NCBI GenBank assembly: GCA_019683695.1
Contig: JADGHX010000015.1
Coordinates: forward strand, 1-46,136
Length of the DNA stretch: 46,136 bases
Source of the DNA: Steroidobacteraceae bacterium
GTDB taxonomy: Bacteria; Pseudomonadota; Gammaproteobacteria; Steroidobacterales; Steroidobacteraceae
Direction: 5' to 3'
The notes under the pieces are model-generated. The model saw only the letters and a list, made by a program, of their open reading frames with translations, made no database searches and was not told the origin of the DNA. Positions 18,130 to 25,370 of the stretch are shown here, piece after piece. The stretch's first letter is position 1. Each line of letters begins with the position of its first letter. Both the position numbers and the translations under genes were made by a program.

Positions 18130-19446
18130 TCAGCCCGGCGGAACAGGCAGCGTCACCGTCGCGACGGCACCCTGACAATCGGTTCGGTTCTGCAGCGTCA
18201 GCGTGCCCGCATGCGCTTCCACGATCTGGCGCGACAGCGTGAGCCCGATGCCGCTGCCGCCGGGCTTGGTCGTGAAGAAGGGGACGAAGAGATTGTCCGG
18301 GTTCGCCAGTCCCGGCCCCGTATCACGAATCTCCACGGCCACCGCATCGCGCGTACGCCGCAGCTCGACTTCGACGCCCGTTGCGTCATTCGCGCACGCT
18401 TCGACGGCATTCTTGAGCAGATTGATGAACGCCTGCTCGAGCTGGCCGGCGTCACCGGAAATCACCGCCTCGCAAGGCGCGACGACGCGCGCCCCTGCGA
18501 ACGTTTCGAGCGCAACGAGCCTCTGCAGCAACGTGTTCAGTGAGACCGGATGTTTAGTCGGCGCGGGCAGCCGCGCGAGCTGGCTGTAGGTGGCGACGAA
18601 GCGCGTGAGGGAAGACGCACGATCGCCAATGAGCGTCAGGCCCTCGACGACATCGCCATGGTGCTCGGAGTGGCTCTGGCGCGAGACCATGTCCCGAAGC
18701 GTCCCCGCCAGAGACTTGATGGGTGCGAGCGAGTTGTTGATCTCGTGGCCGACCACGCGAATCAGGCGCTGCCAGGCGCGCCGCTCCTCCTCACGCAACG
18801 CGCGGCTCAGATCCGAGATCATCAGCAGCGTGTGCGGCACGCCGTTCTCGCGGAATGTGCGCTTGCGCACCTCGAAGCGCCCGGCGCGGCTCGGGAAAGA
18901 GAGGGCGACCACCGCGGGCAGCGAACGGTCCAGCAGGTCGTCCAGTCCGATGGCGCTGGCGGGCTGTCCCAGTAGGCTTTCGCTCGAACGACACATCAGC
19001 TCGCAGGCCGCGCGGTTCAGTAGCTTGAGATTGCGCGCGTCGTCGAAGGCCAGGACCGCAGTGTCCAGTTCCTCGAGCACGGTGTGCACGAGCGCCGTGG
19101 CTTCCACAGACTCGCGCCGCTGCTGCTGCAGCGTTTCGCCGAGCCTGTTGATCTCGCGAATCACCTCGCCCAGCGTGTCGCCCGGCGGGCCTCGGCGGCC
19201 GCGCAGGCTGTAGTCGCCGCAGCGCAGGGCCTCGATGAGGTTCGCTACCGAGTGCAGAGGAAAGATGAGCCGACGGCGCACGGCGAGCGCGCACGCGACC
19301 CAGAAACCCACCAGCAACGCGATCGAGATGACACGCAGTTCTGGCGTGGGCGCATGAGTCCAGGCGTACCACGCGGCAATTGCGGTGGCGGGAAGGCCGC
19401 CCACCAGCGCAAGGAGCGCGAGGCGATTCTGGAACGGGATGTTCAC
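18130..19446 (-). CDS. NtrY-like membrane sensor histidine kinase
   Basis: The 438-residue kinase has two close N-terminal helices (about residues 8-28 and 38-56), a HAMP-like segment (60-110), a PAS-like domain (115-210), HisKA with His234 in VVGHEINNSLAPIKS, and a HATPase domain with NLLKNAVEAC, DTGPGLANPDNLFVPFFTTK and GSGIGLTLSRQIV. This combination is that of NtrY/NtrB-type partners of sigma-54 activators. There is almost no periplasmic loop. The start is GTG 19446, which places the first helix at the N-terminus and lies 13 bases after the regulator gene. It is the last gene of the ABC-permease-regulator-kinase operon. Confidence 0.9.
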   Translation of the reverse strand: MNIPFQNRLALLALVGGLPATAIAAWYAWTHAPTPELRVISIALLVGFWVACALAVRRRLIFPLHSVANLIEALRCGDYSLRGRRGPPGDTLGEVIREINRLGETLQQQRRESVEATALVHTVLEELDTAVLAFDDARNLKLLNRAACELMCRSSESLLGQPASAIGLDDLLDRSLPAVVALSFPSRAGRFEVRKRTFRENGVPHTLLMISDLSRALREEERRAWQRLIRVVGHEINNSLAPIKSLAGTLRDMVSRQSHSEHHGDVVEGLTLIGDRASSLTRFVATYSQLARLPAPTKHPVSLNTLLQRLVALETFAGARVVAPCEAVISGDAGQLEQAFINLLKNAVEACANDATGVEVELRRTRDAVAVEIRDTGPGLANPDNLFVPFFTTKPGGSGIGLTLSRQIVEAHAGTLTLQNRTDCQGAVATVTLPVPPG

Positions 19447-19459
19447 AGGCGGCGGAACT

Positions 19460-20854
19460 CTACAGTCCGTCGCTGCGGATGCCCAGCTTCTCCAGTCGGC
19501 GGTACATGGCGCTGCGGCTGAGTCCGAGGCGTTCCGCGGCCGCATTGACGTTGCCCTCCGCCCGGCGCAGGGCCGACCGGATCAGCAGGCGCTCGGCATC
19601 CTCCAGGCTCATGGCTTCGATACCGGGGGCAGCGGGCACCTGCATGTCGAGCCGGAGGTCCGCGGCGGTGACGGTGGCCCCGCGCGCCATCAGCACCGCG
19701 CGCTCGATGACGTTGCCGAGCTCCCGGACATTGCCCGGCCAGGAGTAGCTCTTGAGCAGCTGCACGGCGCCATCGTCGAACCCTTCGATGCGTCTGCCGT
19801 ATTTGGCGGCGAGAGCGGCGAGCCGACGGTAGGCAATGGGGACGATGTCCTCCTGCCGCTCGCGCAGCGGCGGCAGGCGCAACTCGATGGTGTTCAGGCG
19901 AAACAGCAGGTCCTGCCGGAAGCGGCCCTGCGCGACGAGCTCGGCCAGATTCGCGTTCGTGGCGGCGACGATGCGCACGTCCGCCCGTTGCGTGCGCGAG
20001 GAGCCGATGCGTTCGAACTCACCGCTCTCGATGATGCGCAGGAGCTTCGCCTGCTGGCTCACGGGCACGTTGCCGATCTCGTCCATGAACAGCGTGCCGC
20101 CGTCCGCCAGCTCGAACCGGCCGACGCGGTCGGTCTTCGCATCGGTGAAGGCGCCGCGTACGTGGCCCATCATCTCGCTTTCGAAGACGGTCTCGGGAAT
20201 GCTGCCCATGTTCACCGAGATGAACGGCTTCGCCGCGCGATGCGAGAGCTTGTGGATCAGCCGCGCCATGAGCCCTTTGCCCGTGCCGTTCTCACCCGTG
20301 ATGAGGACCGAGGCATCCGAAGGCGCAATGCGCTCAACGGTGTCCAGCACGGCATGCATCGCGGCGGATTCCGCGATGAAGTCCTCGTCCCCCGAGGCGC
20401 GCAGCAGCTGGTTCTCGGCTTCGAGGCGCCGGGCGCGGCGCACCTCGCGGCTGTAGCTCACCTGGTTGCGCACGAGTGTGAGCACGCGGTGGTTGTCCCA
20501 GGGCTTCTCCAGGAAATCGCGCGCGCCGCGGCGCATGGCTTCCACGGCAACATCGATGCTGCCCCACGCCGTCATCACGATGACGGGGAGCGATGCGTCG
20601 ATGGCCTGGATCTGCGGCAGGAGGTCCAGCCCTTCACGGCCGGAGGTCGTATCCCGGGCGTAATTCAGGTCGATGATCGCGACATCGAAGGATTCCGAGC
20701 GCACCGCTTCGATCAGGCCCGCGGGCGAGCTCACGGTGGTGACCTGCATGCCCTCGTTCTTCAGCAGCAGGCGCAGCGCGGTGAGCACATCCTGCTGATC
20801 GTCCGCAACGATCACGCGTGGGGCGTCGGTGGAACGGTGGTCGGTCATGTTCAT
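19460..20854 (-). CDS. NtrC-family sigma-54-dependent response regulator
   Basis: This 464-residue enhancer-binding protein has a receiver (Asp62, Lys117), an AAA+ domain with Walker A GENGTGKG (187-194), Walker B GGTLFMDEI (252-260) and arginine-finger region near 312-331, and a Fis-type helix-turn-helix at about 435-460. The sigma-54 contact loop reads GAFTDA (234-239) instead of the canonical GAFTGA, yet the rest of the ATPase looks intact. The receiver has a longer loop after Asp62 (DLNYARDTTSGREG), seen in a subset of this family. Its ATG overlaps the permease stop (ATGA). The likely targets are the sigma-54-like promoters in the 24059-24679 spacer. Confidence 0.93.
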   Translation of the reverse strand: MNMTDHRSTDAPRVIVADDQQDVLTALRLLLKNEGMQVTTVSSPAGLIEAVRSESFDVAIIDLNYARDTTSGREGLDLLPQIQAIDASLPVIVMTAWGSIDVAVEAMRRGARDFLEKPWDNHRVLTLVRNQVSYSREVRRARRLEAENQLLRASGDEDFIAESAAMHAVLDTVERIAPSDASVLITGENGTGKGLMARLIHKLSHRAAKPFISVNMGSIPETVFESEMMGHVRGAFTDAKTDRVGRFELADGGTLFMDEIGNVPVSQQAKLLRIIESGEFERIGSSRTQRADVRIVAATNANLAELVAQGRFRQDLLFRLNTIELRLPPLRERQEDIVPIAYRRLAALAAKYGRRIEGFDDGAVQLLKSYSWPGNVRELGNVIERAVLMARGATVTAADLRLDMQVPAAPGIEAMSLEDAERLLIRSALRRAEGNVNAAAERLGLSRSAMYRRLEKLGIRSDGL

Positions 20855-23286
20855 TCCTGCCGCAAGACCGACGCGGGCTGCACGCGCAGTGCGCGGCGCG
20901 CGGGAATCCAGCTCGCCAGCAAGGAGGCGACGATCAGCAGCGCGAACACGATGCTATAGATCACCGGATCATCCGGCGACATGCCGAGCAGACCGCCGCC
21001 GAGCGCGCGCGCCATGATCGGCGCGAACAGCGCGCCCAGCCCGAGCCCGACGACAAGCTGAAACGCCGCGCTGCGCATGACCGTGGCGAGGATCTGCCGG
21101 TCCTGCGCGCCGAGCGCGCGGCGCACGCCGATCTCCCGGTTGCGCTGGCTTGTTGCGCAGGCGAGCACACCATAGATGCCCACCGCCGCGAGAATGATCG
21201 CGATGACGGCGAATCCCAGGAACACATTCGCCAGCAGGCGCAGTGCCGCCCGCTTCTGCATCTGGAATTCCTCGAGCGTCATGATCCAGTACGGCGCGAG
21301 GTCCGGATCCAGGTCCTGCACCACGTCCTGAATGAGCGCACCGTACTCGTGCGGGTCACCCTCCGTGCGGATCGCAACGGTCATGAAGCGCCAGGGCTGC
21401 TGGGCGAGCGGGCGGTACAGCGTCGGCGGAAACTTGCCCTCGTCCCAGTGCATGCTGTGATTGATGTTCGGGACGACGCCGATGATCGTGATCGGCTGCT
21501 GGTTCCCCACATCGGGTGTCAGCAGACGCTTGCCGACCGGATTTCCCTCGGGAATGTATTTGCGCACGAACGCTTCGTTCACCAGCGCGACGCCCTCGCT
21601 ATCCGCGCGATCGCCGCTGTTGAAATCCCGACCGGCGAGGATCGGGCGGTCGAGCGCGGCAAACGTGCCTGGCGTCACCGTGACGGTCTGTGCCACCGGG
21701 TACTCGGATCGACTTGCGTACGACTGACCTTCCAGGGCGTATCGCCAGTCGTCCGTGTCCGTGCCCGGCACGGCCGTGGTCGCGAATGCCGCGAGAACGC
21801 CCGGCCGTGAGCGCAGCTCCCCGACCATGCGCTCGAAGAAGGCGGATTGCGCTTCGATGGGGTATTTCGCGAGCGGCAGCCCGACGCGCGCGCTCATGAA
21901 CGGCTTCACGTCGACGCCGTAGTCGGGTTGCAGGGACATGAACGACGCCCGTGTCATCAGCCCCGCGCCGGTGAGCAGCGAGGCGGCGAGTGCGAGCTCG
22001 ACGATGACCATTGCGGTGGTGAACTTGTTGAGCCGCATGCCCGTGCCGGTGCGGCCACCGTCACGCAGGATGCGCATCACATCCGGCCGCGAGGCGCGCA
22101 GGGCCGGCAAGATGCCCGAGAGCAGCGCAGCGAGCGCCGCAGCACCGGCGGCGAACAGCGCAACGCGGAAGTCGATCGAGAACGTCCACCAGGACGGCAG
22201 GTCCAGCTCGACGAGCGAGGCCGTCGCGCGATGCATGAGATGCAGCGCCACGGCCGCAAGCACGAGCGCTCCGGCAACGCCAACCAGACTGATGATCACG
22301 CTCTCCGCGAGCATCTGCACGACGAGCCGTGCCCGCGGTGCGCCCAGCGCGACGCGCATGCCCGCCTCGTACATTCGTGAGTTCGCGCGGACGAAGATGA
22401 GGCTCGACACATTGGCACACGCGATGAGCAGCACGAGCCACACGGCCGCGAACATCGCGTAGACGATCGTCGTCCCGTCGCCAATGCCGGCCGCCGCGAC
22501 TGGTACCACGTTCGTGGTCGTGCCCGCGTTGGTCCGCGGATAGAGCTTGGCCAGTCGCGCGGCGATGCTCGCCAGGTCATCCGCGGCTTGCTCCCCCGTG
22601 ACGCCCGGGGCCAGCCGGCCGACCCCGATGACACCCACCGAGGATTCGTACGTCTGATCGCCCCGTTGGGCCTTGCTCACGTCGCTGGCCATGGGTATCC
22701 ACAGCACTTCGCGGGCCGGATAGGAAAACCCGGGCGGCATCACGCCGATGATCTTCGTGGGCCGTGCGTTCAGCCGGATGACGCGACCGATCACGTGTCG
22801 ATCGCCGCGGAAGCGCGTCTTCCACAGGTCGTAGCCGAGCAGCGCCACGGGCTCGGCGTTCGGCAGGTCGTCATCGCGCGTGAAGTCCCGGCCGAGGATG
22901 GGCTTCACGCCGAGCACGCGCATGAAGTTCCACGACACCATCCCGCCGGTGTAGCGCTCGGGGAAATCATGGCCGGAGAGGATCACGGTGCCACTGAAGT
23001 ACGCCGCAAGATCCTGAAACGTGTGCTGCTGCTGCTTGAGCTCCAGATAATCGGGATACGAGACGGTGTTGAAGTGCTGATTCCGGGAGGGCTCTGCGCT
23101 CAACACGGTGTACAGCCGGTGGGCATCGGGGAAGGGCGGCGGCTTCAGCAGCAGCGTGTTGATCACGCCGTACATGAAGATGGTGGCGCCGAGGCCGAGC
23201 GCGAGCACTGCGGAAGCCAGCGCAAGGAACGCGGGCGAGCTGCGCAAGCTGCGCCACGCCTGCAGGAAATCGTCGATCAGGAACAT
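20851..23286 (-). CDS. ADOP/MacB-type ABC transporter permease
   Basis: The 811-residue protein is a duplicated MacB/FtsX permease. An N-terminal helix (about 18-42, after SLRSSPAFLALA) is followed by a large periplasmic MacB core domain. An FtsX block of three helices comes near 270-400, and a second helix, periplasmic domain and C-terminal three-helix FtsX block (about 690-811) complete the protein. This is the layout of the 'acidobacterial duplicated orphan permease' group. Here it is not orphan, because its ATPase lies 19 bases upstream. A type VII mechanotransmission role (efflux or periplasmic work without a transmembrane substrate path) fits the family; the cargo is unknown. The start at ATG 23286 excludes a basic upstream extension. 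Confidence 0.9.
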   Translation of the reverse strand: MFLIDDFLQAWRSLRSSPAFLALASAVLALGLGATIFMYGVINTLLLKPPPFPDAHRLYTVLSAEPSRNQHFNTVSYPDYLELKQQQHTFQDLAAYFSGTVILSGHDFPERYTGGMVSWNFMRVLGVKPILGRDFTRDDDLPNAEPVALLGYDLWKTRFRGDRHVIGRVIRLNARPTKIIGVMPPGFSYPAREVLWIPMASDVSKAQRGDQTYESSVGVIGVGRLAPGVTGEQAADDLASIAARLAKLYPRTNAGTTTNVVPVAAAGIGDGTTIVYAMFAAVWLVLLIACANVSSLIFVRANSRMYEAGMRVALGAPRARLVVQMLAESVIISLVGVAGALVLAAVALHLMHRATASLVELDLPSWWTFSIDFRVALFAAGAAALAALLSGILPALRASRPDVMRILRDGGRTGTGMRLNKFTTAMVIVELALAASLLTGAGLMTRASFMSLQPDYGVDVKPFMSARVGLPLAKYPIEAQSAFFERMVGELRSRPGVLAAFATTAVPGTDTDDWRYALEGQSYASRSEYPVAQTVTVTPGTFAALDRPILAGRDFNSGDRADSEGVALVNEAFVRKYIPEGNPVGKRLLTPDVGNQQPITIIGVVPNINHSMHWDEGKFPPTLYRPLAQQPWRFMTVAIRTEGDPHEYGALIQDVVQDLDPDLAPYWIMTLEEFQMQKRAALRLLANVFLGFAVIAIILAAVGIYGVLACATSQRNREIGVRRALGAQDRQILATVMRSAAFQLVVGLGLGALFAPIMARALGGGLLGMSPDDPVIYSIVFALLIVASLLASWIPARRALRVQPASVLRQE

Positions 23287-23305: not shown

Positions 23306-24058
23306 TCACATCGCCGGTGCCAGCTCGGGCGCAAGCACCGGACGCGCGTGATCCTCGAAAAGGATACGGCCATCGAAGATCTGCACGCGTCGTTCAGCGA
23401 AATCCGCATAGCGCGCGTCGTGCGTCACCATGCAGATGGTGGCGCCTTCCGCGTGCAGTTTGCGCAGCAGCTCCATCACCGCCTCGCCGTTGCGTGAGTC
23501 CAGGTTCCCCGTGGGCTCGTCTGCGAGAAGGATCGAGGGATTCCCGGCCAGCGCGCGCGCCACGGCTACGCGTTGCTGCTGCCCTCCCGAAAGCTGCGAA
23601 GGGTAGTGAGTCAGGCGATGTGCCATTCCCACGCGCTCGAGCGCTTCGATCACGGCCTTGCGGCGCGCCTCGCGCGAGAGGCCCGGGCGGTAGGTGAGCG
23701 GCAGCTCGACGTTCTGATAGACGTTCAGATCGCCGATGAGATTGAAGGACTGGAAGATGAAGCCGATCTCGCGATTGCGGATCGTGGCGCGCTCGTCGGG
23801 GCGGATCTCGGCGACCGACCTGCCATTCAGGAAGTACTCGCCGCTCGTCGGCGTATCGAGCAGCCCGAGGATCGCGAGCAGCGTGGACTTGCCGCAGCCG
23901 GACGGCCCGGAGATCGACACGAACTCGCCGCGCTCGATGTCGCAATGAACACCCGAGAGCGCGTGGGTCTCGATCTCGTCCGTGTGGAAGACCTTCGTGA
24001 TGGCGCGCATGCGGATGAGCGGCATGCGTTCCGCGTTCCGGTTGAATGAGTCGATCAT
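23306..24058 (-). CDS. MacB/LolD-type ABC transporter ATPase
   Basis: The 250-residue ATPase has Walker A GPSGCGKST (51-59), Q loop in FIFQSFNLIGDLN, signature LSGGQQQR (156-163), Walker B ILLADEP (176-182) and the H loop in MVTHDARYA. The IFQSFNL and LSGGQQQRVAVARAL stretches are typical of the MacB/LolD subfamily that energises FtsX-type permeases. ATG 24058 was chosen because GGGAG stands six bases upstream; the open frame extends to 24349 but lacks family character. It is the first gene of the operon with the permease, regulator and kinase, about 145 bases after a sigma-54-like promoter. Confidence 0.93.
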   Translation of the reverse strand: MIDSFNRNAERMPLIRMRAITKVFHTDEIETHALSGVHCDIERGEFVSISGPSGCGKSTLLAILGLLDTPTSGEYFLNGRSVAEIRPDERATIRNREIGFIFQSFNLIGDLNVYQNVELPLTYRPGLSREARRKAVIEALERVGMAHRLTHYPSQLSGGQQQRVAVARALAGNPSILLADEPTGNLDSRNGEAVMELLRKLHAEGATICMVTHDARYADFAERRVQIFDGRILFEDHARPVLAPELAPAM

Positions 24059-24213
24059 CGTGAGCTCCCAGGAGACCGTCGCGCCGGCACTCGAGGACAC
24101 CGATCCGGTGGTCCGGGTCGCAGTCTGGAATCGATCCGCATTCGGGCGGCAAACCTGAGGTCTCCCGGCGGGGACGCGCTGCACCGGACGCGAGCAGCCC
24201 CTGCAGATGAGAA

Positions 24214-24229
24214 GGCAAGGCTCATGCCA
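24214..24229 (-). promoter_or_regulatory. Sigma-54 promoter for ABC/two-component operon
   Basis: On the minus strand TGGCATGAGCCTTGCC matches the -24/-12 consensus TGGCACG-N4-TTGC closely, with GG and GC exactly ten bases apart. Transcription would begin near 24203, about 145 bases before the ABC ATPase start. The operon encodes an NtrC-family activator, which fits. Not tested. Confidence 0.6.
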
Positions 24230-24412
24230 ATGAGCCATCGCCCGCGACCGATGATGTAACTGCATGAGTGCCGCCGCAATTGCGGGCGGCTCAGTCGCGG
24301 CAAGTGCCGGATTTTCGCGGGCGGCGATCGCGTTTTCGGGACGGCGCACCGGCCCCGGATCCCATTATCGGGATCGAGGGGGCAACGCCCGTGTCGTCCC
24401 GCATGCGGGATC

Positions 24413-24473
24413 GGTGTCCGCCGGACGTCCGGCGGACGTCCCGGCCGCGGGACTGGACGGCGCGGCGGACACC
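24413..24473. promoter_or_regulatory. Candidate enhancer (UAS) cluster of GTCCGCCG half-sites
   Basis: Three copies of one half-site occur: GGTGTCCGCCG (24413-24423), CGGCGGAC (24430-24437) and CGGCGGACACC (24463-24473). The first two form a perfect 22-bp palindrome (24416-24437). The first and third have perfect 11-bp inverted arms. The second and third are 33 bases apart, about three helical turns. The cluster lies about 170-230 bases upstream of both predicted sigma-54 start points, a normal distance for an NtrC-type enhancer. Confidence 0.5.
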
Positions 24474-24574
24474 TCTGCCGTACGCGGCAGGCGCGCGCCG
24501 GAGCAAAAACTTTTGGCGTGCGATCAGAGATTTAACTGACGTTGCAGGCGCGCCCGCGAGCCTTCCGGCGCGAT

Positions 24575-24590
24575 TGGCATACGCGGTGCT
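24575..24590 (+). promoter_or_regulatory. Weaker sigma-54-like promoter for the 27-residue gene
   Basis: TGGCATACGCGGTGCT keeps GG and GC ten bases apart but differs from the consensus at several positions. Transcription would begin near 24602, about 80 bases before the mini-gene ATG. Confidence 0.35.
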
Positions 24591-24679
24591 TTACACCGAT
24601 CGCAGCACACGGACATCGAAGCCGACACGGATCGAGGCCCGGACTGCCCGATCCCTCAACCCCCAACCGGAGAAGTGCC

Positions 24680-24763
24680 ATGCGTAACGTCCTCTTCACG
24701 ATCACCCTCGCGGCCGTGGGTCTGTTGCAGCTTGCCCTCGTCGCGGAGTTCCTGGGCTTCTGA
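24680..24763 (+). CDS. 27-residue single-helix membrane mini-protein
   Basis: The ATG at 24680 is preceded by GGAG (24669-24672, seven bases upstream) and opens a 27-codon frame ending at TGA 24761-24763. The product begins MRNVLF and is almost entirely hydrophobic (leucine, alanine and valine rich), with one positive residue near the N-terminus and one Glu near the C-terminus. It is long enough for a single membrane helix. A perfect hairpin begins nine bases after the stop, and a sigma-54-like promoter lies about 80 bases upstream, so it looks like its own short transcription unit. I do not recognise it; partnership with the divergent ADOP transporter or its kinase is inference. Confidence 0.6.
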   Translation: MRNVLFTITLAAVGLLQLALVAEFLGF

Positions 24764-24771
24764 GGCGTCGG

Positions 24772-24792
24772 TGCACGACCGCGAGTCGTGCA
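24772..24792 (+). terminator. Hairpin after the 27-residue gene
   Basis: TGCACGAC (24772-24779) and GTCGTGCA (24785-24792) pair perfectly around the five-base loop CGCGA. No T-run follows. A second short inverted repeat, CCGCAC/GTGCGG, lies just beyond it. Confidence 0.6.
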
Positions 24793-24908
24793 TCGGCGAC
24801 AGCCCGCACAGTGCGGACCGCCACATTTTGGAAAGCGTCATCGTGCGTACGGCCACGTTTCCGGTACATTTGCGACCGCCGAAGTCCCCCGGCGAGTTAC
24901 CGCACCCG

Positions 24909-25370
24909 ATGTCTGCAGCGACGCATCGAGAAGTCTGCGTTGCGCCCGATCGATTCGAGGTCGTGGCCGACGATGCCGTTCTGGTTGCCGAGCTTCGCTC
25001 GGCAACGGCGGTGTGCCTCTACGACGCCGTGGAAGAGGCCGGCGCACTCCTGCATCTGCGCTTCATCGTGCGTCCGTCGAAGCCGGCGGATGTCACCGAC
25101 ACCACGCTTGCAACGGAGCTGCTGCTCCTCGACCGCTGCATCGCGTCGCTGCGCGAGGCGGCGCCCGCTGCGAAGAACCTGCAGGCCAAGATCGCTGCGC
25201 ACCTTCCTGAGAACCCGGATGCGCAACGCGCCTGCGAAAACGTACTCACGCTTGTGAAGCACGTCCTCGACGACTCGGGCATGAAGGTCGTCATGTCCGA
25301 CATCGCGGGCGGCCTCACGCCTCGGCAATTGCGCTTCCGCCCCAGCATGGGGTCGTTGCAGATCCGCTAG
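24909..25370 (+). CDS. CheD-like protein lacking the catalytic cysteine
   Basis: The 153-residue product resembles chemoreceptor glutamine deamidase CheD. The stretch LRSATAVCLYDAVEEAGALLHL (residues 29-50) lines up with the CheD core (GSCVAVC...GAMAH in Thermotoga), and the C-terminal IAGGLTPRQLRFRPSMGSL resembles the CheD GGxxxRxVxF end. The catalytic Cys position is Ala32, while the catalytic His is kept as His49 at the same 17-residue interval. Deamidase activity is therefore unlikely, and a binding or regulatory role is more plausible. No chemotaxis genes are nearby. The ATG at 24909 has only a weak ribosome site. A bulged hairpin follows the stop. Confidence 0.6.
   Translation: MSAATHREVCVAPDRFEVVADDAVLVAELRSATAVCLYDAVEEAGALLHLRFIVRPSKPADVTDTTLATELLLLDRCIASLREAAPAAKNLQAKIAAHLPENPDAQRACENVLTLVKHVLDDSGMKVVMSDIAGGLTPRQLRFRPSMGSLQIR

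Follow-up and report, generated by a model that had tools for sequence, protein, structure and literature searches.

A probable control region of a self-regulating sigma-54 two-component system for a MacB/ADOP-type ABC exporter

Autoregulated enhancer systems of the NtrC family with divergent sigma-54 promoters are known from arrangements of the ZraSR/zraP and PspF/pspA type. Kinases of the intramembrane-sensing kind, for example BceS and GraS, have two membrane helices and between them just a very short loop. They belong to transporter-coupled modules, BceAB-BceRS and VraFG-GraRS among them (for VraG/GraS, see PMC7951975). A 2025 survey of sigma-54 regulons found sigma-54 promoters enriched at genes for FtsX-like permeases and COG1136 ATPases (PMC12316311). 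The locus described here ties sigma-54 to the same transporter class, and both an activator and an operator, neither of which is named in the portion of that survey considered here, are supplied below.

We analysed a stretch of 46,136 nucleotides (the window) and conclude that a 400-bp spacer within it is probably the control region of an autoregulated sigma-54 two-component module that drives a MacB/ADOP-type ABC exporter. Similar to ZraSR/zraP and PspF/pspA, the locus combines an enhancer-binding regulator with outward-facing sigma-54 promoters around shared operators, and the regulator's own genes are among the predicted targets. It differs from them in its target, a MacB/ADOP-class ABC exporter, and in its operator, rTCCCrNNNNyGGGAy. 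The architecture is of a known kind, while the operator family, the paired regulator clades and the adaptor-less version with two promoters are new to us; a literature search among open-licence papers found no described sigma-54 activator or operator for a MacB/ADOP exporter.

Sigma-54 sites were scored with a weight matrix that approximates the published consensus (Barrios et al. 1999). An earlier note on this DNA had proposed divergent GG-N10-GC promoters in the spacer, and its two sites indeed proved to be the highest-scoring pair anywhere in the 46-kb window, the third-best site reaching 12.0 bits. The leftward site, P-left (TTGGCATGAGCCTTGCC; 24214-24230, minus strand), scored 18.3 bits with a predicted start at about 24203 and is placed before an operon for an ATPase, a permease, a response regulator and a histidine kinase. 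The rightward site, P-right (TTGGCATACGCGGTGCT; 24574-24590, plus strand), scored 16.1 bits with a predicted start at about 24602. Both have the GG-N10-GC spacing with TTGGCAY- and TTGCW-like -24/-12 elements, above background: in 4 Mb of sequence simulated with a first-order Markov model of the window's dinucleotide make-up, 24 sites reached at least 16 bits and none at least 18 bits. Judged by their sequence, both qualify as sigma-54 promoters. When conservation of the -24/-12 elements was checked at orthologous loci, the exporter operons were found to be preceded by a sigma-54 promoter of 13-21 bits, the counterpart of P-left; P-right had no counterpart at the equivalent place in relatives.

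Domain matches confirmed that the leftward operon encodes an NtrC-family activator, its kinase and an ADOP transporter. Its genes, all on the minus strand, are an ABC ATPase of the LolD/MacB class (23306-24058; PF00005, with DarD, MacB and LolD as best NCBIfam matches, below their cut-offs), an ADOP-type duplicated permease carrying MacB_PCD and FtsX domains twice (20851-23286; TIGR03434, PF12704, PF02687; Met 42 of the reading frame taken as the start), an NtrC-family response regulator (19460-20854) and a histidine kinase (18130-19446; PF02518). The permease is assigned to ADOP by a TIGR03434 score of 762.8 bits against a cut-off of 622.3. The regulator joins a receiver (PF00072), a Sigma54_activat AAA+ domain (PF00158) and a Fis-type HTH (PF02954), as do group I bacterial enhancer-binding proteins, and its translation reads GAFTDA, a variant of the GAFTGA loop. 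It stayed below the cut-off of every named NCBIfam equivalog shown (NtrC, AtoC, ZraR, PrsR and others; best 382.5 vs 558.6 bits) and falls into a clade of its own, apart from those characterised proteins. Hydropathy revealed that the window kinase, like most of the relatives' kinases examined, has two membrane helices separated by a very short loop; almost none of the window kinase is therefore periplasmic, as in the intramembrane-sensing kinases of Bce-type modules. The operon also resembles those modules in encoding an ATPase and an FtsX-type permease together with a response regulator and such a kinase. However, the window system is Gram-negative, its regulator is of the NtrC/sigma-54 type and not of the OmpR type like BceR, and its permease is of the ADOP/MacB type with periplasmic core domains.

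For comparison, the regulator was searched in the contigs of its own genome and in samples of the family, order and class, and the DNA surrounding each match was then compared. As the genus was represented by this genome only, the comparison reaches beyond the genus. Regulator loci were sparse at the cut-offs used (11 of 200 family, 10 of 396 order and 6 of 369 class-sample genomes, own genome included), and the relatives are unevenly related and not all independent lineages. The usual operon consists of a sigma-54 promoter followed by genes for an HlyD-type adaptor, an ATPase and one or two permeases, with the regulator and kinase genes downstream or divergent. The MacB-like ATPase and permease, and the adaptor as first gene in nearly all relatives, recall MacAB-type tripartite exporters. 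The window operon differs from both in having no adaptor (MFP, HlyD-type) gene, and thus departs from the adaptor-first order of its own clade (the T clade, see below). Only two adaptor homologues were found in the genome, both in other operons (contigs C85 and C191); because the assembly is a draft of 312 contigs with 97.65% completeness, the lack of an adaptor partner is not certain. The window locus is unusual in this missing adaptor gene and in an additional promoter directed towards an orphan 27-residue membrane peptide.

A conserved operator was first spotted by eye in aligned upstream regions and then recovered by a de novo count of all 4-bp dyads with gaps of 0-16. The count covered 250 bp ahead of each of 21 sigma-54 promoters, which belong to orthologous transporter/regulator loci, the window being excluded. 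One dyad, TCCC-N6-GGGA, dominated: it was present upstream of 18 of the 21 promoters, while across 100 shuffles no dyad went beyond 5. In its full form, rTCCCrNNNNyGGGAy (GTCCC-N6-GGGAC), it occurs in the spacer as copy 1 (ATCGCGTTTTCGGGAC, 24327-24342), with one mismatch and 32 bp from copy 2, and as the perfect copies 2 (ATCCCATTATCGGGAT, 24359-24374), 3 (GTCCCGCATGCGGGAT, 24396-24411) and 4 (GTCCCGGCCGCGGGAC, 24438-24453). Paired operators in relatives were spaced by 30-32 bp at 10 of 11 loci, compared to 42 bp between copies 3 and 4. An exact-pattern scan of the 5.18-Mb genome returned eight perfect copies, three of them within the 400-bp spacer, and a single match per strand for the reversed control pattern. 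A wider regulon of this operator in the own genome was rejected: the remaining five perfect copies lie inside predicted reading frames and without a convincing sigma-54 site, the only match nearby, at the copy on contig C265, being weak (11 bits). A changed gene order does not part the operators from the regulator: at L032 an operator pair and promoter stand ahead of a separate exporter operon, and at L104 the operator is found at the exporter operon and also at another promoter, which lies upstream of the regulator gene. At four T-clade loci (L107, L034, L026 and L021), no operator was detected at up to one mismatch. At the level of sequence, the comparison demonstrates a tie of the operator to the regulator clade and to the exporter, and the window shares with the T clade, a class defined in this analysis, operator copies upstream of the operon's sigma-54 promoter. 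The operon's own regulator thus most likely binds three to four of the GTCCC-N6-GGGAC copies. The earlier note had placed an autoregulated enhancer cluster between the promoters; the general idea is backed by the comparison, with the conserved dyad TCCC-N6-GGGA in place of the enhancer it had named.

A complete paralogous module was observed elsewhere in the genome (G000:C191, locus L087, 1671-9247), with a sigma-54 promoter and genes for an adaptor, an ATPase, a permease, an SRQ-type regulator and a kinase. Its regulator is 45% identical to the window regulator, and 50 of the 392 order genomes searched encode a regulator of this type. In the regulator tree the two clades separate (support 100/100 for the P clade and 80/84 for the T clade), and the window regulator lies inside the T clade. 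The recognition helix reads SRS in 28 of 30 T-clade regulators and SRQ in all 13 P-clade regulators. Operator type follows this single position of the helix, which is Ser for the T clade and Gln for the P clade; the T-clade regulators that deviate, those of L026 and L034, come from loci without a detected operator.

The enhancer envisaged earlier was built from three GTCCGCCG half-sites, which are present in the spacer, as are, exactly where they had been placed, a perfect 22-bp palindrome (GTCCGCCGGACGTCCGGCGGAC, 24416-24437) and an inverted repeat with exact 11-bp arms (GGTGTCCGCCG at 24413-24423 and its inverted copy CGGCGGACACC at 24463-24473; 24413-24473 overall). The cluster is significant and suitably placed for binding by the operon's own NtrC-type regulator: the palindrome, located between operator copies 3 and 4, is the sole perfect one of 22 bp in the window, and the three occurrences of GTCCGCCG, two of which are forced by the palindrome itself, compare with 0.11 expected and were reached in none of 2000 shuffles. 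In addition, the palindrome consists of two 11-bp GTCCG units (24416 and 24427) in 11-bp register with the GTCCC of operator copy 4 (24438). However, GTCCGCCG, GTCCGSCGGAC and GTCCG-N0-6-CGGAC were all missing from the 21 orthologous promoter regions (window excluded), 18 of which carry the other dyad. The expected conservation of the half-sites therefore failed, GTCCGCCG was ruled out as a conserved operator, and its use as the enhancer of this regulator is very unlikely. An alternative explanation is that the cluster provides a second input, formed by half-sites for the C191 regulator, which would then cross-regulate the spacer. Promoter regions of the C191-type system contain TGTCCG/CGGACA half-sites, which the GTCCGCCG cluster resembles; they form a TCCG-N4-CGGA dyad in 10 of 21 regions and clusters or other spacings in others, C191 included, and none of the 21 upstream regions has the TCCC operator at up to one mismatch. 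The 9-mer GGTGTCCGC is common to the C191 and window spacers, and the difference between SRQ and SRS recognition helices also fits two distinct inputs. On the other hand, GTCCG arises often at 66% GC, and the paralogue operator TGTCCG-N4-CGGACA was rejected for the window, where its best match had four mismatches. Because the N4-spaced dyad is missing, cross-input is only a lead, conceivable although we do not favour it.

On the rightward side, the 27-residue membrane peptide described earlier was found as a 27-codon ORF (MRNVLFTITLAAVGLLQLALVAEFLGF; 24680-24763, plus strand) encoding a hydrophobic peptide, with a GGAG 7 nt before the ATG and, directly 3' of it, a hairpin with a 14-bp stem and no U-run (24766-24798, plus strand). 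A CheD-like gene and then otsA follow. That P-right is a chance match and the leftward promoter works alone would agree with its lack of conservation in relatives and with a -12 element that reads GTGC instead of TTGC, but this is unlikely given that only about 0.002 sites of at least 16 bits are expected per 400 bp (Markov model of the window), against the 16.1 bits of P-right, and that the spacer contains two more perfect operator copies towards P-right. Somewhat easier to entertain, yet still doubtful, is that P-right serves a short RNA, or the CheD-like and OtsA genes further right, and not the 27-codon ORF. Sigma-54-driven small RNAs such as GlmY, Qrr and CrcZ provide a precedent, a hairpin follows the ORF, and a search for homologues of the peptide gave, in 217 family genomes, matches at chance level only, almost all of which fell within long ORFs, and none in plasmids. 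With neither P-right nor the peptide matched in relatives, the rightward half of the module is peculiar to this genome. Against a short RNA, the fold of the predicted transcript is not better than those of shuffled sequences (z 0.85), on which ground a structured sRNA downstream of P-right was rejected, and the window contains no Rfam family or tRNA match; the well-placed GGAG favours the ORF. The downstream genes are disfavoured by the relatives: the CheD-like gene is kept in many family genomes, directly beside otsA in several, and had no sigma-54 site within 500 bp upstream in any of 11 relatives examined, so that the two genes were rejected as ancestral targets. As the CheD-like gene is conserved without such a site, the exporter module looks like a newcomer at this locus.

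In the CheD-like gene (24909-25370), the motif that we take to carry the catalytic Cys of CheD reads SAT, and the protein may be inactive as a deamidase.

Returning to the autoregulated exporter module as the preferred reading, we propose that the kinase phosphorylates the NtrC-type regulator of the leftward operon, and that the phosphorylated regulator would bind the rTCCCrNNNNyGGGAy operators starting at 24327, 24359, 24396 and 24438. From there it would activate RNA polymerase-sigma-54 at P-left by DNA looping, leading to expression of the ATPase, ADOP permease, regulator and kinase, and the same looping probably also activates P-right and thereby the 27-residue membrane peptide. Activation would raise the transporter, regulator and kinase together, plus the peptide, and would constitute positive feedback because the regulator and kinase are encoded in the operon. 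The transporter probably relays the signal to the kinase, as in Bce modules. Such a relay is the simplest inference for a kinase that has two membrane helices but next to nothing in the periplasm and that shares its operon with an FtsX-class transporter. A bolder combination of these elements, which we regard as quite improbable as a whole, would be a Gram-negative equivalent of Bce modules that runs on sigma-54. In it, the ADOP/MacB transporter would do the sensing on behalf of a kinase that lacks a sensory domain, the NtrC-type regulator would fire both promoters through the four-copy array, the orphan peptide, made upon induction only, would replace the adaptor or damp the kinase, and the second exporter system, distinguished by Ser/Gln, might provide a further input by way of the GTCCGCCG cluster.

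An activator and an operator are now given for each of two sister systems, in which SRS-type regulators go with TCCC-N6-GGGA and SRQ-type regulators with TGTCCG/CGGACA elements. This makes the regulon searchable in any genome. The single Ser/Gln residue offers a concrete test of specificity, and the kinase layout makes it testable whether the Bce-style transporter-coupled sensing of Gram-positive bacteria exists with Gram-negative sigma-54 regulators.

The genome encodes two sigma-54 proteins (G000:C276:17374 and G000:C255:65902). At another of its loci (L089, 1393-1463 on G000:C143), two strong sigma-54-like sites of 20.5 and 17.5 bits were observed to face one another from opposite strands at a distance of 37 bp.
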